Shown here in pieces: positions 5,628 to 14,908 of a DNA stretch of 46,612 nucleotides. Source of the stretch: Thermoplasmata archaeon (GTDB lineage Archaea > Thermoplasmatota > Thermoplasmata > Lutacidiplasmatales > UBA184). The translations under genes and the position numbers were made by a program. The notes under the pieces are model-generated. The model was not told the origin of the DNA and made no database searches. It saw only the letters and a program-made list of their open reading frames with translations. Location: assembly GCA_022749995.1 (NCBI GenBank), contig JAKIWO010000005.1:1-46612 (forward strand), given 5' to 3'. Position 1 is the stretch's first letter; each line of letters starts with the position of its first letter.

Positions 5628-6932
5628 CTAGCCGACCCGCTCCCATCGCTCGAGCTTCTGGACCTTGCCCAGGGTCGAGCCGCGCCGTATCTCCTCTCGG
5701 ACGCGGTTCTCGTGCTCGAGTACGTCGAGCGCCCGGTTCGCAATCTCCTGGGCGCGTTCTCGCGGGACGACCACGAGGCCGCTCGCGTCGCCGACCATCC
5801 AATCCCCGGGGCGGACCCGCTGGCCGCCGACTGTGACCTCGACGCCGATCTCGCCGTGGCCCTTGGGCTCGCCGGCGTTCGGGGAGACGTGGCGGCTAAA
5901 GACGGGGAACCCGAGCTCCAGGATCGCGTCCAAGTCCCGCACCGCACCGTCGATCACCACGCCGCTCACCTTCCGGCCGTGGGCCGACCAGCTGGCGAGC
6001 TCCCCCCAGATGGCCGTGGTTTGCCCGCCCGCGTCGATGACTATCACCTCGCCGGGGCCGGCCCGGTCGATCGCCTCGACCGGCTTCGCCCAGTCCCCGT
6101 CGCGCGTGACGACGGTGACCGCCGGACCGACAAGCTTGGTGTCGGGGCGCGGCAGGTGCGCCTGCAGCCCGTGCAGCGCACCCTTGCGCTGCATCGCATC
6201 GGAGAGGTTGGGAGTGGAGACCTTGAGGAACGCCGAGCGGACCTCCTCGCTGCCGACCCGACGGAACTGCTCGGAGGCGACGGCGGTCCGGCTCTCCATC
6301 GCCTGGCGTAGACGGGCGGTGGCGCCCCGGATATCTTCGGACTTGGTGATCGCGCCTCCGACGATCAGGATCTGCGCACCCACGCGGGTCGCTTCGGCCA
6401 CGCTCTCGCTGGTGAGTCCGCCGGCCACGGCCACCGGCACCGGACAGACCTTGGCGAGCCGTTCGAGCTCGGCGAACGGCGTGCGGCCGGTCATCTGCAT
6501 GTCGATCCCGATGTGCAGGCAGACCGCCGCCACGCCGAGCTCGGCCACCTTGCGCGCGCGAGCCGACGGGTCCGGCACTCCGAGCAGGTCGACCACCACC
6601 TCCGCGCCGTACTTCTCCCCGCCCCGCACGGCATCGGCGATCGTCTCGTCGTCGGCGGCCCCGAGCACCGTGACCATGTCGGCGCCGGATTTCGCCGCGA
6701 TCTCCACCTCGAACGCTCCCGTGTCCATCACCTTCATGTCGGCGACGACGCGGTGCCCGGGGAACGCCTTCTTCAGTTCGCGGACCGCGTCGAGCCCCTC
6801 GCTCTTGATGAGCGGCGTGCCCGCCTCGACCCAGTCCGCCCCGCCGTCGACCGCCTCCCGGGCCGCGGCCAGCGCCCGGCTCAGGTTCTCGAAGTCGAGC
6901 GCGACCTGCAGCACCGGCCGCTCGAGCTGCAC
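5628..6932 (-). CDS. Bifunctional 3-hexulose-6-phosphate synthase / RraA-like (HPS-RraA fusion)
   Basis: N-terminal HPS/OMPDC-like barrel (VLQVALDFENLSRAL..GADWVEAGTPLIKSEG..VVADMKVMDTG) followed by RraA-like domain (TPNLSDAMQRKG...GEVIVIDAGGQ..AIWGELAS..VSGVVIDGAVRD). GTG start at 6932 chosen over the longer ORF to 7307. Confidence 0.88.
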   Translation of the reverse strand: MQLERPVLQVALDFENLSRALAAAREAVDGGADWVEAGTPLIKSEGLDAVRELKKAFPGHRVVADMKVMDTGAFEVEIAAKSGADMVTVLGAADDETIADAVRGGEKYGAEVVVDLLGVPDPSARARKVAELGVAAVCLHIGIDMQMTGRTPFAELERLAKVCPVPVAVAGGLTSESVAEATRVGAQILIVGGAITKSEDIRGATARLRQAMESRTAVASEQFRRVGSEEVRSAFLKVSTPNLSDAMQRKGALHGLQAHLPRPDTKLVGPAVTVVTRDGDWAKPVEAIDRAGPGEVIVIDAGGQTTAIWGELASWSAHGRKVSGVVIDGAVRDLDAILELGFPVFSRHVSPNAGEPKGHGEIGVEVTVGGQRVRPGDWMVGDASGLVVVPRERAQEIANRALDVLEHENRVREEIRRGSTLGKVQKLERWERVG

Positions 6933-7013
6933 ATCCGCGCCAGCGTGGGAGCCCTCTTTACCTGCGCCGGCGGCGACGGCCGCCGTTATCCAAGGGGTGG
7001 ACGTGCGCCGTCG

Positions 7014-7820
7014 GTGGTCTCGCCCGGCTGGGTCCGCGTCATCGAAGGGGACGCCCGCACCCTCCCCGGGGTGGGGCCGGAGTCGGTCCAACTCGTCGTG
7101 ACCTCGCCACCGTACCCGATGATCCCCCAGTGGGACCCGCTCTTCGTCGAGCTGGGCGCGGGCGGTGACTTCGCCGCGATGCATGCGGAGCTCGAGCGGG
7201 CCTGGCGGGCCTGCTTCCGGGCGCTGTGCGAGGGGGGGATCCTGGCCGTGAACATCGGCGACGCGCTGCGCACCGGTCCCGAGGGGTTCCGGCTCTGGCC
7301 GAACCACGCCGAGGTGCTGCTGCGGGCGGAGGCGGCCGGGTTCCGCCCGCTCCCGTACCTGCTGTGGAAGAAGCCGATGAACCGGCCGAACGCCTACCTC
7401 GGTTCGGGTTTCCTCCCGCCCAACGCCTACGTCACGCTCGATTGCGAGTTCATCCTCCTATTCCGCAAAGGCGGGCCGCGCCGGTTTCCCCCCAAGGATC
7501 CCCGCCGCCGCTCCTCGGGGTACTCCCGGTCGGAGCGGGACCGCTGGTTCTCGCAGCTCTGGGGCGACCTGCGCGCCGCGCGGCAGGCGACCCCGGAAGG
7601 TGGCCGCAGCGCCGCGTTTCCGCCGGAGCTGCCTCGCCGGCTCGTGCGGATGTTCTCACTCGAGGGGGAGACGGTACTCGACCCGTTCGCCGGCACCGGT
7701 ACGACCCTCTGGGCCGCGGCCGAGCTCGGCCGCAATGCGATCGGTATCGAGCGGGACTCGGCGCTCGCCGCCCGCCTCAGGCGGCGGGCGGAGCGGGGGG
7801 AGCCGGCACCGGCGGATTGA
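7014..7820 (+). CDS. DNA methyltransferase, N4-cytosine/N6-adenine type
   Basis: Catalytic motif TSPPYP and SAM-binding motif DPFAGTGTT in beta-class order; GTG start at 7014 inside ORF 6513..7820. Confidence 0.87.
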   Translation: MVSPGWVRVIEGDARTLPGVGPESVQLVVTSPPYPMIPQWDPLFVELGAGGDFAAMHAELERAWRACFRALCEGGILAVNIGDALRTGPEGFRLWPNHAEVLLRAEAAGFRPLPYLLWKKPMNRPNAYLGSGFLPPNAYVTLDCEFILLFRKGGPRRFPPKDPRRRSSGYSRSERDRWFSQLWGDLRAARQATPEGGRSAAFPPELPRRLVRMFSLEGETVLDPFAGTGTTLWAAAELGRNAIGIERDSALAARLRRRAERGEPAPAD

Positions 7821-8322
7821 GCCGGTGCTCCTGCTCCTCCTGCACGGCCGCGCGAAGGTAGGCCAGGGCGCGGTCCGGCAGCCGGTCGAGGTGCAGCAGC
7901 AGGTAGTGAAGGTACACCCGCTCGGGACGATGGGAGGGCCCGGGAGGACGCACCTCTACCCGCGGTCCGTACTCCTCGAGCGCCCGCAGGGTGGCGTTGT
8001 GGTGCTCGTGCGCCGGCCCGTGGAGCTGTCGACCAATTTCGCCGACCAGCGGCGGGTAGACCCGACCGACCGGGTCGTACTCCGGGTCGGGGGACACGGC
8101 TGCGGCGGCCGCATGTTGGGCCTTCAGGTGGACGTACGGGTGGGTGGGGCGGCTCGGGTCCTGGAACGCCTCGAGCGGCTGGCCCGAGACCTCCTCGACG
8201 ATCGTCCGGAGCGACCAGGACTCTCGGCGGGCGGGGGCTGGTGGCGCCTCATCCTCCGGCGGAGTCCCCATCATCCGGTCGCCCCGCCGACGGCGGAGAT
8301 AAACCTGCGTTTCGACCTGCAA
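7777..8322 (-). CDS. Uncharacterized protein, distal gene of T4SS-like operon
   Basis: 181-aa ORF overlapping the upstream ATPase ORF in the operon direction; no recognised domain. Start uncertain (M at 8322, or MMGTPPEDE). Confidence 0.55.
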   Translation of the reverse strand: MQVETQVYLRRRRGDRMMGTPPEDEAPPAPARRESWSLRTIVEEVSGQPLEAFQDPSRPTHPYVHLKAQHAAAAAVSPDPEYDPVGRVYPPLVGEIGRQLHGPAHEHHNATLRALEEYGPRVEVRPPGPSHRPERVYLHYLLLHLDRLPDRALAYLRAAVQEEQEHRLNPPVPAPPAPPAA

Positions 8323-9967
8323 CGGCCTCCCCGGGCGGGCCGCGCAGCTGCGTGGTGAGGAACTCGTACTCGGGCGTGGAAGCGACCAACGCGATGGGCA
8401 GGTGTGCGGAGCCGAACCGGAGCAGCCCCTCGGAGTAGCCGGCCTCCCGCGGCAACCGGGCCCGGCCGAGCCAGTCGGCCTCGGCAGAGGAGAGGCCGTA
8501 GAACCGGCGTGCCTCCGACGATACCGGCGAGAGTCGAAGGAGTACGCTCACCCGGAGGTTCCGCAGCACCGAGCGGCCGGCCTCGGACCGCAGGAAGTCG
8601 TCCGGGCTCTGCGAGAGGAGCACCAGCCCGGCCGTGTCGTGGCGCACGCGGCGCACGAGGCCGTCCAAGAAGCGGGCCGTGGCCGGATGGCCGACGAGAA
8701 GGTGCGCCTCGTCCACGAGGAGCAGCTTGGGGCCGGCGCGGTGCGAGAGACGCTCGGCGATCGCCTCGAGGGCGTAGGCGAGGTGGAAGGCCCGATGACC
8801 CGGCGCGACGCCCGTCAGGTCCACCACGAGCGGGTCACCTGCGAGCTCCACCGTCGTCGGGCCGTCCAAGTACTGCAGTGATCCGGACCGGAACGTCTCG
8901 AGCAATCCGGGCAGGCGGGGAGCCTGGGCCGATTCGGCCGCTACTTCTCCCAGCAGATCGCGGAAGGTGGGCACGCCGCTGCGCTCGTACAACCGGTGGA
9001 GTGCGCGGTCGAGGAGGGCCGACTCTTCGTCCCGTAGGCTGGGGAACAGCGCCCCCAGCAGGGCGCCGATCCGCGCTGCCTTCTCCGACCGGTTTCCGCC
9101 AGCGCTCGCCGGGTCGAGCGGGTTGAGCCGACCGGCGCCGCCCGGACCCAGGTGCAGTACCTCGCCGCCGAGCGCTCGTGCCCAGTCGCCGAACTCCCCG
9201 AGCGGATCGAGCACGGCCACGGACAGGCCGGGGTTCATCCACCGTTCCCGCATCGCGAGCAGGCTCGCCGCGAAGCTCTTGCCGGCCCCGGTGGTGCCGA
9301 AGATCCCCCAGGAGTGACTTCCGTGCTTCCAACGGTTGAGCAGGACCGGCGCAGCATCCTCGAGCGCGAGCCCCAGGAGGACGCCCCCCGGCTCCAGTAC
9401 CGACTCGTCGACGAACGGCAGGAAGGCGGCCGCGGAGTCGCTCGGCAGCAGATGCCAGTATCCGGGCGGGCGGCGTCCCCCTCCGCCGGGGGAGCGGGGG
9501 GCGAGGGCGAGCGCGCTCTCGTAGCGCGGCGAGCGGGTACGGAAGCCGACCGCCTCGAGCCCCCGTTCGAGCGCGAGCCGGCGGCGTTCCGCCTCGGCGG
9601 TGCTCCGGCCATGGGCCGTGAAGCAGATCCCCACCCGGAAGAGCCGCTGCTCGCGGGCGGCGACCGACCGGCCGAGTTCGCGGGCGCTCTCGGCCTCGCG
9701 CTCGAGCTCGGCACGGCGCCCCTCGGGGGGCGGGAGGGAACCGCCGAGCTCCGCCTCGGCCCGGCTGGCCACTTCCTCCAACCGGCGCAGGGAGGGTGCG
9801 GGCGGCTCCGGCTGGAGCTCGAGCCGAAGGCCCCGTTCGCCGCTTCCCCCGAGGAGCCGGCCCAGGAAACCGAAGGCGACTCGGGGCGGCAGTCGGCTCA
9901 CGAGCAGCGGGGCCGTCGTGCCCGCGGGAGTGCGGATGGCGCCCGGGGATTCGGCCGCCTCACTCAT
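8249..9967 (-). CDS. VirB4/HerA-like T4SS ATPase
   Basis: Walker A GTTGAGKS, Walker B KLLLVDEAHLLV, sequence HDTAGLVLLSQSPDDFL typical of VirB4/TraE C-domain; ATG at 9967 overlaps the upstream gene stop. Confidence 0.85.
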   Translation of the reverse strand: MSEAAESPGAIRTPAGTTAPLLVSRLPPRVAFGFLGRLLGGSGERGLRLELQPEPPAPSLRRLEEVASRAEAELGGSLPPPEGRRAELEREAESARELGRSVAAREQRLFRVGICFTAHGRSTAEAERRRLALERGLEAVGFRTRSPRYESALALAPRSPGGGGRRPPGYWHLLPSDSAAAFLPFVDESVLEPGGVLLGLALEDAAPVLLNRWKHGSHSWGIFGTTGAGKSFAASLLAMRERWMNPGLSVAVLDPLGEFGDWARALGGEVLHLGPGGAGRLNPLDPASAGGNRSEKAARIGALLGALFPSLRDEESALLDRALHRLYERSGVPTFRDLLGEVAAESAQAPRLPGLLETFRSGSLQYLDGPTTVELAGDPLVVDLTGVAPGHRAFHLAYALEAIAERLSHRAGPKLLLVDEAHLLVGHPATARFLDGLVRRVRHDTAGLVLLSQSPDDFLRSEAGRSVLRNLRVSVLLRLSPVSSEARRFYGLSSAEADWLGRARLPREAGYSEGLLRFGSAHLPIALVASTPEYEFLTTQLRGPPGEAVAGRNAGLSPPSAGRPDDGDSAGG

Positions 9968-10317
9968 GATCGCCTCGCCGCCCGGCCGGCAGGTCCGGGC
10001 CGACCGAGCAGCGCTGCCAGCGCCGCGGGCACCACGAGGAGTACCGAGTGCTCCGGGCCGCGGTAGAGAACGTACAGCGCCGCCGCGGCACCGGCGCAGC
10101 CGAGGAGCCCTAGCAGCGGTGCGCTTGCCCGCCGGGACCCGGCGAACTCCATCCAACGGATCGCGAGCGAGGCGAAGACGAGCAGGACGAACGTCGCCGT
10201 GACGGCGCCGAAGGAGGGCCACCGCAGCGCGATGAGGGCGGACACGAGTGCCCCGGCGCTCGCCAACCCGAGCGGGTCGGGAAGCTCCTCCCCCGACCCA
10301 TCGCCGCCGGCGCTCAT
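9964..10317 (-). CDS. Small multi-TM membrane protein of T4SS-like operon
   Basis: 117 aa with several hydrophobic helices; 4-bp overlaps with both neighbours. Confidence 0.7.
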   Translation of the reverse strand: MSAGGDGSGEELPDPLGLASAGALVSALIALRWPSFGAVTATFVLLVFASLAIRWMEFAGSRRASAPLLGLLGCAGAAAALYVLYRGPEHSVLLVVPAALAALLGRPGPAGRAARRS

Positions 10318-11069
10318 CGAGGTTGTCCCCGGAGTGCACGCGCCGTCTCGGCGAGCTCTCCTCCGCGCAGACGTCGCGGAGAGAGTTCGAGGCGGGCGAG
10401 CTGCTCCTCCACCGCCGCCACCTGGCGGGCGAGTCGGGCCCGTCCGGCCGGTGACGGGCGTAGCTCCTCGAGGAGCAGCCGCACTCGGGTGCGCCGTCTC
10501 CGGCGCAGCAGGAGGAGGAGGAGCTCGCGGTAGGCTCGTGCGGCGGCTTGGAGGTCGGCGGAGTCACCGCTCCCACGTCCGGTCGGTGGGAGGAACGGTG
10601 CGCTACGGACCGGGACGCTGCCGACCTCGAGCCACAGGGGGCCGCCGAGGGAGTCGAGGAAACTCCGGTAGGCGGAGAACCGGCTCGATTGCTCGGGAGC
10701 CGGAAGATACGCGAGCGGCGCACCGGCCACTTCGAGGCCCGCGACGAGGCCTCCCGCTACGGGAAGGGCCGCCCCGGCCGCAGGGGCCGAGGAGCTTCCG
10801 CCCGCGGCGGTCGATCGCCAGCGCCAACGGAGGTAGTCGCTGCACCGCTCGTCGAGCGCCTTGCCGTCGGGCCGGTAGGTGGCGAGGAGGAATCCGCCCC
10901 CGACGAACGGGAGCCATACCACCGGGGAGCTGAGGGCGGCGGCGACCGCACCGAGTACGAGCGCCAGGAGGAACTTGAGCGCGTCCGTGACCGTCTCGAA
11001 CGGCCCAAACCGTGCGCGTCGCAGCATCGGCTCGGGCAGCCGGACCTCCACCGGGAGTGCGGCGCTCAC
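10314..11069 (-). CDS. PrgI-like T4SS membrane protein
   Basis: MSAALPVEVRLPEPM..RARFGPFETVTDALKFLLALVLGAVAAALSSPVVWLPFVGGGFLLATYRPDGKALDERCSDYLRWRWRS matches the PrgI-family layout (two TM, then 'G+.LDE....LR+R'). GTG start overlapping the previous stop. Confidence 0.68.
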   Translation of the reverse strand: MSAALPVEVRLPEPMLRRARFGPFETVTDALKFLLALVLGAVAAALSSPVVWLPFVGGGFLLATYRPDGKALDERCSDYLRWRWRSTAAGGSSSAPAAGAALPVAGGLVAGLEVAGAPLAYLPAPEQSSRFSAYRSFLDSLGGPLWLEVGSVPVRSAPFLPPTGRGSGDSADLQAAARAYRELLLLLLRRRRRTRVRLLLEELRPSPAGRARLARQVAAVEEQLARLELSPRRLRGGELAETARALRGQPR

Positions 11070-12202: not shown

Positions 12203-12580
12203 CTAGACGCCGGTGACGACCCACTGCGCGAGTCCCCAGACCAGTCCGGTGACGGCGGCGGTGAACACGAGCGTACCGATCAGGGCGTCGCGTGCGCGCT
12301 CGCGAGCCTGCACCTTCTTCGAGACATCGTGGGAGAACCAGCTCAGCGCCACCCGAGCCCAGACGAGCGCGAGCAGGCCGCCGCCGGCGGCGGCCACCAG
12401 CGCGACGAGCCGTCCGATGGCGGCCGTGAAGTTCCCCTCGACCGAGGTCGCCCGAAGGTGCGCGACCGGTGCGGCCTCGGCCGGCGCCAGCGGAGCCACC
12501 GGCATCGGGGGTAGGAGGAGGAGCAGCCCCAGCAGAGCCAGTCCCACGCTCCTCAGGAGGCGCGCGGGTCCGGGCCTCAC
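12203..12580 (-). CDS. VirB2/TrbC-like pilin-type membrane protein
   Basis: Signal-like N-terminus (LLRSVGLALLGLLLLLPPMPVAPLAPAEA) followed by two TM helices separated by a short basic loop (SHDVSKKVQARERARDALIG); GTG start overlaps the upstream stop. Confidence 0.65.
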   Translation of the reverse strand: MRPGPARLLRSVGLALLGLLLLLPPMPVAPLAPAEAAPVAHLRATSVEGNFTAAIGRLVALVAAAGGGLLALVWARVALSWFSHDVSKKVQARERARDALIGTLVFTAAVTGLVWGLAQWVVTGV

Positions 12581-14841
12581 GGCTCCGCCTCCCCGCGCTC
12601 CGGGCGCGGCCGGGCACCAATCTCCCCGCGCTCGCGCCAGTGGTAGGTCGTGGGTTCCTCCGGCTCGGTGACACTCTCGATACGACCGAGCGCGATCCAG
12701 CGGCGGAGCGCCTGTCGGGTCGTCTCGGGATCGATCCCCTCCTCCTCGGCGAGGAGGAGCAGCGTGTCCTCGTCCAGACCCTCCGCGTCGCGCACCAGGC
12801 GTCGCAAGGTCGGCAGCGCACCCCGCGGTTCCGGGACCGTCGGCTTCGCGCGGCTCGGGAGCCGGGAACGGAACAGCCAGAGCGTACCGAGGACGAGACC
12901 GGCCGGAAGCAGCACCCAAGCGAGGCCGGTGCCGCCAGCGGAAGCGGCGGGGGTTGCGTTGGCGTCTCCGGCCCGCGGAGGTCCGGACCCCACTCCGCCC
13001 CCGGGAGCGATGGTCAGCGTGAGGCTGCTCTCGTTGCGGAATCCGAGGGCATCGGTGACGTCGAACTGGACGAGGAGGAAGCCGGAGGGAGCCGGGGGCG
13101 CCGTCCAGTCACCGGGACCCGGCAGCGAGGCGTTTCCGGCGGTCCCTGTACCGTCGGAGAGCCGCAGCGAGTACCGGTAGGGGAGCACCCCGCCCGCGAT
13201 CGTGAAGCTCAGGGTGAGTGGAGTGCCGGAGGTGGGCGAGGTCGACGCCAGGATGGCCGAGGCCTCGAGCGGCGCGAGCACCCGAAGCGTCAGGTTGGAG
13301 CTCACCGAGTCCCCGGCGCCGTCGACGAGGGTCACGACGAACAGCGCGGCTCCGGCCGAGGCGAGCGTTCCATTCCACGCGAACACTCCTCCCGAGGAGA
13401 GGCTGCCGGACCGGGCCGCTGCGGTGGAGATCCGCGCGGTGGTCCCGATCGACCAGTTGAGCGGAGGGGTGCCCCCTCCGGTGAGACCGACGACCTCGAC
13501 CGAGCCCCCGACCTCGCTGACGCTCGGAGTCAGGTTCGCGAGGAGGAACGGCGCGCTGTGCACGCGCGCCAGCGGCAGCGTCTCGCTCACGCCCACCCCG
13601 AGGGCATCGGTGACCGTCAACGACAGCCACAGCGGTGCGGCGATCGACGGGACCACCGCTTCGGTCCAGTTGCCGGGCCCGGCGGAGGTGAACGTGAACG
13701 TCGAGCCGGAGGGGACGGAACTTCCGGTCACTGCGAAAGGCCCCACCCCGCCGGCAAGCGCGAGGTGGAACGGCAGCGGGCGGTCCACATCGCCTCCCGC
13801 GGCGCCCACCACGCCCAGCGTTACCTGAACCGCCGCTGCGACAGGGAACTCTCGGTCGACCACGACCAGCCCTCCCAGGCGGTCGCTGACCTCGAGCTGG
13901 AGCCCGAGCTCCCTCGCGGTCGGGGCAGGGACCGTCCAACTCGGTCCGGTCCCCGCATCGCCGGCGCTGTCGTTCCAGAGATACGTGTACGGCGGGAATC
14001 CCCCTTCGACGAGCGCGCCCACCGCGAAGGGGGCCCCGAGCTCGGGACCGGCCGATTGCGGGACCAGCTCGGCCGCGAGCGCGCTCGCTACCAGTACGGC
14101 CGAGTTCACCTGGGCGGTGACCCGCTCCCCCAGCGGGTCGCTGACACTGACGCTGGGCAGGTACGTCCCGAGCCCGTACCGGTGCACCACACTGAACCCT
14201 CCCGCACGGGGCAGCGTGAGCGGGGTGCGGTTACCGTCACCGAAATCGAACCCGAGCTGGTAGGGTGGCTCACCGCCGGAGAGGTTGCCGGAGCAGCGGA
14301 CGGCGGCTCCGGGGACGGCGGGGGTGTTCCCCGCCGACCAGTCGGAGAGGAACAAGGCCGGGATCGTGGCGATGCTCGCCTGCGCTTCGGTGCCGAAGGA
14401 GACGTTGTTGGCAGGGCAGACGACGGAGCCTTCGACCGTGGCGCTCAGCTCGACGGTGCCGCTCACGCCGGGGAACGCCGAGAAGACCACCGAGGCGCCG
14501 GTGGGGGAGAGGAGCGTCCCGATCGGCTGGGCGAGCACGGACAGCTCCCACACGACCACGGGCGTCTCGACGGCGCACCCGGGGACCGAGGAGCCGACCC
14601 ACAGTGCGAACGAGCCGTTCTGCCCGGCGGCGAGCGTGGCCGCCGCCGGCACGATCTCGACGGAGGCGAACCCGAGGGCGGGCACCCGGTCGCCCTCGCC
14701 GGCGACGGGAGCGAGGCGTTCGCTCGGGTGGAAGCCGCCGCCTCCGAACAGCAGGAGCGGCAGGAGGAGAGATCCCAGCAGTCCCACCCATAGCAGCGGC
14801 AAGGGCGAGCGCATCGCCCGTCGGCCCGGCATCGAAACCAC
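12577..14841 (-). CDS. Surface protein with PKD/Ig-like repeats, single TM and cytosolic winged-helix-like domain
   Basis: Signal peptide (SPLPLLWVGLLGSLLLPLLLFGG), repeated beta-sandwich motifs (GGEPPYQLGFDFGDGN, GGFPPYTYLWNDSAG, GGVLPYRYSLRLSDG), TM (GLAWVLLPAGLVLGTLWLF), C-terminal helical HTH-like segment (DEDTLLLLAEEEGIDPETTRQALRRWIALGRIESV). Alternative start 14814. Confidence 0.85.
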   Translation of the reverse strand: MVSMPGRRAMRSPLPLLWVGLLGSLLLPLLLFGGGGFHPSERLAPVAGEGDRVPALGFASVEIVPAAATLAAGQNGSFALWVGSSVPGCAVETPVVVWELSVLAQPIGTLLSPTGASVVFSAFPGVSGTVELSATVEGSVVCPANNVSFGTEAQASIATIPALFLSDWSAGNTPAVPGAAVRCSGNLSGGEPPYQLGFDFGDGNRTPLTLPRAGGFSVVHRYGLGTYLPSVSVSDPLGERVTAQVNSAVLVASALAAELVPQSAGPELGAPFAVGALVEGGFPPYTYLWNDSAGDAGTGPSWTVPAPTARELGLQLEVSDRLGGLVVVDREFPVAAAVQVTLGVVGAAGGDVDRPLPFHLALAGGVGPFAVTGSSVPSGSTFTFTSAGPGNWTEAVVPSIAAPLWLSLTVTDALGVGVSETLPLARVHSAPFLLANLTPSVSEVGGSVEVVGLTGGGTPPLNWSIGTTARISTAAARSGSLSSGGVFAWNGTLASAGAALFVVTLVDGAGDSVSSNLTLRVLAPLEASAILASTSPTSGTPLTLSFTIAGGVLPYRYSLRLSDGTGTAGNASLPGPGDWTAPPAPSGFLLVQFDVTDALGFRNESSLTLTIAPGGGVGSGPPRAGDANATPAASAGGTGLAWVLLPAGLVLGTLWLFRSRLPSRAKPTVPEPRGALPTLRRLVRDAEGLDEDTLLLLAEEEGIDPETTRQALRRWIALGRIESVTEPEEPTTYHWRERGEIGARPRPERGEAEP

Positions 14842-14908
14842 CCGAGCAGGGACCGGTCCGCCCGGTACTTGCCGCGGGCGCGTGCGGCGGGAGTTGAACG
14901 GTGGGGCG

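Follow-up and report, generated by a model that had tools for sequence, protein, structure and literature searches.

The first gene of a T4SS-like operon in soil archaea of the Lutacidiplasmatales lineage encodes a membrane protein that, judged from its sequence and setting, is most likely a new accessory part of a machine whose type is already known. This protein, which we term the leader, combines an extracellular array of Ig-like domains with a single transmembrane (TM) helix and an acidic winged-helix tail. We propose, with a probability of about one half, that it is an adhesive stalk whose winged helix binds protein and so docks it on the machine.

Organization of the leader gene and its operon

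The leader was examined within a 46,612 nt stretch of Thermoplasmata DNA (the window), where it lies with its promoter region as follows.

12577..14841, minus strand: leader gene, encoding an N-terminal hydrophobic segment, about six Ig/PKD-like domains, one TM and a cytosolic winged helix
13003..14667, minus strand: ectodomain, residues 59-613, about six beta-sandwich domains (AlphaFold, with Foldseek matches to multi-Ig proteins)
12868..12933, minus strand: transmembrane helix, residues ~637-658 (hydropathy, and a helix in the AlphaFold model)
12631..12825, minus strand: cytosolic acidic winged-helix domain, residues 673-737 (AlphaFold, Foldseek, profile matches and charge)
14842..14908, minus strand: leader promoter region, with a CGTTCA half-site (14900-14895), a TATA-like AAGTACC (14870-14864) and the Shine-Dalgarno-like GGGTGGT (14843-14837)

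The coordinates 12577-14841 given in the original prediction are correct and correspond to a GTG open reading frame running from 14841 to 12577 on the minus strand. Because the GTG at 14841 sits within the GGGTGGT Shine-Dalgarno-like stretch, which is also present before the leader in relatives, translation more probably begins at the ATG at 14832, giving a predicted product of 751 aa. At the other end of the gene, the TGA stop (12577-12579) overlaps the GTG start of a pilin-like gene at 12580 within the sequence GTGA, an overlap already noted in the original prediction. The genes that follow on the same strand are, in order:

12203..12580, minus strand: VirB2-type pilin-like protein, with a signal peptide and two TM segments flanking a basic loop
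11066..12184, minus strand: VirB6/CedA-like polytopic membrane protein (weak profile match and position)
10314..11069, minus strand: PrgI/VirB3-like protein (weak profile match and position)
9964..10317, minus strand: small polytopic membrane protein, found in part of the family; similar-sized proteins fill the slot elsewhere
8249..9967, minus strand: VirB4-like ATPase (profile match to PDB 4ag5, VirB4, 1.8e-44)
7777..8274, minus strand: D1, a conserved cytosolic protein after VirB4 (conservation across loci)

The predicted identities of these products differ in firmness. That of VirB4 is solid, with further NCBIfam matches to conju_CD1110 (8.6e-38) and VirB4_CagE (7e-16). The pilin assignment is good at the family level, as T4SS_pilin (PF18895) matches 23 of 34 homologues with a best value of 1.3e-9 (0.025 for the window copy alone). 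By profile, the VirB6-like and PrgI-like assignments are weak (TrbL/VirB6, PF04610, in 2 of 31 homologues, best 5.8e-4; PF12666 in 6 of 30, best 0.0094), and both genes stand in the order expected. A PDB profile search with the pilin and VirB6 alignments returned nothing usable. On these assignments, the leader heads a T4SS-like operon of the kind originally described.

Upstream of the leader lie genes for fibrillarin and a RidA-like protein, which mark the genome as archaeal, and the conservation of these neighbours suggests a fixed chromosomal locus. Among nine genomes of the family no match was obtained to PF03432, the one relaxase family searched, and PF02534 was present only in G008, away from the operon; the combination of relaxase and T4CP with T4SS by which conjugative elements are recognized was not found.

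Several variations in operon content were also recorded. One locus (L117:3825-8684, genome G051) carries five tandem pilin-like genes, of which four encode precursors of 300-400 aa in which the two-TM pilin domain is preceded by a large N-terminal region. Genera g3 and g4 (L099 and L100; contigs of G012, G013, G017 and G023) possess a second, diverged VirB4 with 30-32% identity, and at L099 a PrgI-like match lies in the same frame as this second VirB4. In the window, an open reading frame adjoining the operon on the plus strand (6513-7820) carries a TSPPY-type DNA methyltransferase motif, recognized by eye.

Ectodomain and membrane topology

The original layout of ectodomain, one TM and winged-helix C-terminus is borne out by the models, and its signal peptide is seen as a hydrophobic segment at residues 14-32 (hydropathy), which may be either a signal peptide or an uncleaved anchor, the two being alike by sequence. 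Hydropathy analysis likewise agrees with the predicted topology: a single TM at ~637-658 is followed by an arginine-containing basic stretch, which places the C-terminus inside. The TM directly precedes the tail in every homologue read, the only exceptions being a truncated reading frame and two tail-only forms.

An AlphaFold model of the full leader, built from an alignment of 15 sequences, places about six beta-domains between residues 59 and 612. Only one domain in the window protein carries a classic PKD motif (FDFGDGN, at residue ~199), and its Pfam matches are to SprB/Big_9 only, below threshold. The Foldseek matches of the ectodomain are mostly strings of Ig-like domains, and PKD, Ig_3, Big_7 and Big_13 are found by Pfam in longer homologues and in the counterparts from DHVE2 described below; the ectodomain is thus an array of Ig-like domains behind a signal-sequence-like segment. 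Its length ranges from none to ~2,200 aa, and the Ig families differ between the window's lineage and DHVE2, a pattern that fits an exchangeable adhesive stalk.

The tail is a conserved winged helix

The HTH-like C-terminus that had been predicted does fold as a winged helix. In the model of the full protein this domain occupies residues 675-735. When the tail was modelled alone from 28 sequences its core reached a pLDDT of ~90, with helices at 13-23, 29-38 and 43-55 and strands at 59-64 and 67-73, which constitutes an H-H-H-beta-wing fold. Its top PDB matches by Foldseek are winged helices (Fur, Hop2, MarR and Z-alpha), with a best E of 0.0068, a probability of 1.0 and TM-scores of up to 0.62. 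The more specific proposal of a MarR-type domain is unsupported, as the fold is that of a generic winged helix and the nearest sequence neighbours are MCM C-termini.

These neighbours from outside the family belong to the MCM C-terminal winged helix (PF21100), with values between 3e-7 and 5e-6 per genome across the four genomes read, one match being confirmed by Pfam; DUF5817_CT (PF22798) matches 22 of 29 tails, with a best value of 6.5e-5. The MCM domain comes from a soluble AAA+ helicase that acts in replication. We claim no homology between the two beyond a likeness of fold; the similarity is weak and may reflect fold alone. No second strong match to the tail was found in the window's own genome.

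Conservation within the leader is highest in the winged helix, whose mean pairwise identity is 38% versus 25-29% for each domain of the ectodomain. Three genomes (G032, G009 and G249) encode, between fibrillarin and the pilin gene, a small tail protein that lacks both TM and ectodomain. As all three belong to one genus, these tail-only forms may represent one or two events; nevertheless, they provide the strongest hint that the tail has a role of its own on the cytosolic side.

Such observations bear on the idea that the leader is a plain surface adhesin or coat protein whose cytosolic domain is a mere anchor, with its place in the operon reflecting co-expression without physical contact. A variable and dispensable ectodomain would suit this explanation, as would the apparently unlinked 626-aa protein of genome G013 (L242, contig C97), which has a PKD ectodomain, a TM and apparent tandem winged helices and is encoded on a short contig without T4SS genes. 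We consider it improbable, as conservation is concentrated in the tail rather than the ectodomain, and the tail outlives both ectodomain and TM, which would not be expected of an anchor.

Charge of the tail and possible DNA binding

All 29 tails are acidic, with a net charge of -2 to -10 per 65 residues (median -6). Among eleven HTH_24-type winged-helix domains from the same genome, the median charge is about +3 and the range -4 to +6 (Mann-Whitney p 2e-6, which is overstated because the tails are related to one another). The recognition helix is not conserved, and its charge varies from +3 to -6; it is acidic in several genera and mildly positive in some members, those of the window's genus included. 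Neither a basic DNA-binding surface nor a conserved recognition helix was found in the tail, and DNA binding, to which an acidic domain is no strict bar, is disfavoured on these features.

Such features matter most for the possibility that the leader is a membrane-bound one-component regulator, in which the Ig ectodomain would respond to contact or to the state of the surface, with the winged helix binding DNA to control the operon. An ectodomain, one TM and a cytosolic winged helix are found together in ToxR/CadC-type regulators and in archaeal membrane proteins with a C-terminal winged helix. The leader tail is a true winged helix and shows the canonical HTH pattern, and the mildly positive recognition helices agree with such a role. 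In addition, the leader is the first gene of the operon and is often served by a promoter of its own, with a conserved element upstream, and the tail-only soluble forms could be ordinary regulators, since a freestanding winged-helix protein beside the operon suits this explanation equally. Unlike the ToxR/CadC type, however, the leader has its winged helix at the C-terminus, acidic and without signs of a DNA-binding surface, and is encoded inside a T4SS-like operon. The acidity of all 29 domains, which sets them apart from most winged-helix regulators of the same genome, the unconserved recognition helix and the behaviour of the promoter element described below make a regulator doubtful.

A different use of the fold would be for the winged helix to bind transferred DNA or cargo proteins at the cytosolic mouth of the machine, in place of a VirD4 coupling protein and a relaxase, neither of which the operon encodes. 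The HTH fold and the PF03432 and PF02534 results given above would be in keeping with this role. Against it, the tail is acidic, HerA/FtsK/TrwB-like ATPases encoded elsewhere in these genomes may include a coupling protein, and three genomes without the tail keep the operon; we regard such a role as having a low probability.

A promoter element shared with ATPase genes

In most genomes with short ectodomains, the gap between fibrillarin and the leader contains CGTTCANCGTTCR or a near match, followed by an AAATACC-like box and then the Shine-Dalgarno sequence. Exact matches to this element number 0-4 per family genome, several of which lie within open reading frames and may be due to chance, and the backward pattern has none in the family. 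With 0-2 mismatches, the element also lies 36-78 nt upstream of a second HerA/FtsK-type ATPase gene (ATPase 2) in 14 of 28 genomes scored; these sites are all in genera g1, g5 and g6, and the backward control matched that level once. Tandem sites are present in the leader promoters of L061-L078 and upstream of ATPase 2 in L291-L305, and in the window genome the leader and the second ATPase gene each have a half-site. The distribution raises the possibility that the element marks a transfer-machine regulon.

Sites also occur 400-780 nt before a third, HerA-like ATPase frame of ~900 aa (L287, L289 and L290). In G001 this third frame matches the VirD4/TrwB coupling-protein family PF10412 (TrwB_AAD_bind) above the cut-off.

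The element does not follow the leader strictly. It is kept before the pilin gene in G014, from which the leader is absent, and it stands upstream of ATPase 2 in G030, where neither leader nor VirB4 was found. Both cases argue against the leader as a regulator of the operon, and the survival of the element in G014 led us to reject the leader as its sole reader.

Distribution and loss of the leader

Among 399 Thermoplasmata genomes, a VirB4 of this kind is present in 83 of the 95 that belong to the window's family, and in other families as well. The tail was called at E 1e-12 or better, and one partial match at the end of a G013 contig was also counted. On this basis it is present in 74 of 83 VirB4-positive and 2 of 12 VirB4-negative genomes of the family (Fisher p ~5e-7, in a test that ignores phylogeny). 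Both VirB4-negative carriers (L243 and L244) have VirB6-like genes on the same short contigs. Of 73 pairs of tail and VirB4, 57 lie on one contig, separated by 2.7-3.6 kb, and in each of the 29 family loci showing both genes the tail gene is located directly upstream of the pilin gene. The leader is therefore conserved together with the T4SS-like genes, as the original prediction proposed.

Nine VirB4-positive genomes lack the tail. In G004 and G385 the contigs end inside the operon, and in four more VirB4 is, judged by its coordinates, near a contig end. In the remaining three (G014, G369 and G232) fibrillarin is found directly before the pilin gene, such that the leader is gone and the operon kept, which indicates that the leader is not essential. 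The VirB4 of G232 (L249) is split over two frames, possibly a sign of decay of the machine.

Five genomes of the DHVE2 family encode a protein with a TM and a winged-helix-like tail directly upstream of pilin-like genes. These proteins are 743 to 2,293 aa in length and have an Ig ectodomain where complete. From gene order, we take the DHVE2 protein to be the positional counterpart of the window's leader. The tail HMM did not detect the DHVE2 leader (E 0.12), and a profile-profile alignment of the two groups of tails is co-linear over 55 columns and weak (P 0.005, probability 7%). Homology of these tails is not claimed, there being no detectable sequence relation. Three further Thermoplasmata families (f27, f11 and f19) have the operon without such a leader among the loci listed. 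Nor was such a leader found in ten loci from Archaeoglobales, Patescibacteria and Actinobacteria, where one Archaeoglobales locus begins at VirB4.

Discussion

The window's operon resembles the Ced and Ted DNA-import systems of Sulfolobales and Thermoproteales, which, in the portions of the reports available, are likewise archaeal and chromosomal and include a VirB2-type pilin, a VirB4-like ATPase and a VirB6-like channel (PMC9905601, PMC11868833). The weakly matched VirB6-like protein of the window is a candidate counterpart of that channel. The TedC pilin is there given a signal peptide, as is found in the window's pilin. Those portions describe no PrgI gene and no protein with an Ig stalk, TM and winged helix (PMC9905601, PMC11868833). 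The window VirB4 is nearest to monoderm conjugative VirB4s (conju_CD1110), and matches CedD at only 1e-6. The Sulfolobales Ced system works alongside separate Ups pili.

In monoderm T4SS classes, contact between donor and recipient depends on surface adhesins, PrgB among them (PMC12102498). PrgB-type adhesins of Gram-positive T4SS (MPF-FATA) are, like the leader, large surface proteins encoded with a monoderm-type T4SS, and are thought to give contact (PMC12102498). Unlike PrgB, the leader is anchored by a C-terminal TM and has a cytosolic winged helix. The literature searches returned no description of the leader component.

We favour a model in which the leader is an accessory protein dedicated to a chromosomal machine of T4SS descent (Ced/Ted-like) that may move DNA. 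The Ig-repeat stalk would project from the cell, probably touching neighbouring cells, the pilus or the cell coat, and the single TM would cross the membrane between stalk and tail. The acidic winged helix would bind protein, docking at the machine's cytosolic face on VirB4, PrgI or the VirB6-like protein. Docking of this kind would tie the stalk to the machine and might tune the ATPase upon contact. Two functions had been offered originally: a machine anchor that binds an ATPase or other partner on the inside fits the data better, and a contact-sensing transcription regulator fits them worse, because the tails are acidic, the recognition helix is unconserved and the promoter element outlives the leader.

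A stronger version of the docked stalk would have it signal contact through the TM to a winged helix that controls the VirB4 motor, with the machine and the extra ATPase genes under a common CGTTCANCGTTCR element in their promoters. We think full contact gating unlikely. A sensor-motor link of this kind was found neither in the available portions of the Ced and Ted reports nor in descriptions of monoderm T4SS.

If the docked-stalk model is true, a stalk connected to the machine across the membrane would offer a direct candidate for the means by which archaeal T4SS-derived machines find or recognize partner cells. The DHVE2 counterpart could make the role of the stalk testable, and natural variants are already at hand in the genomes with the tail only or without the leader.
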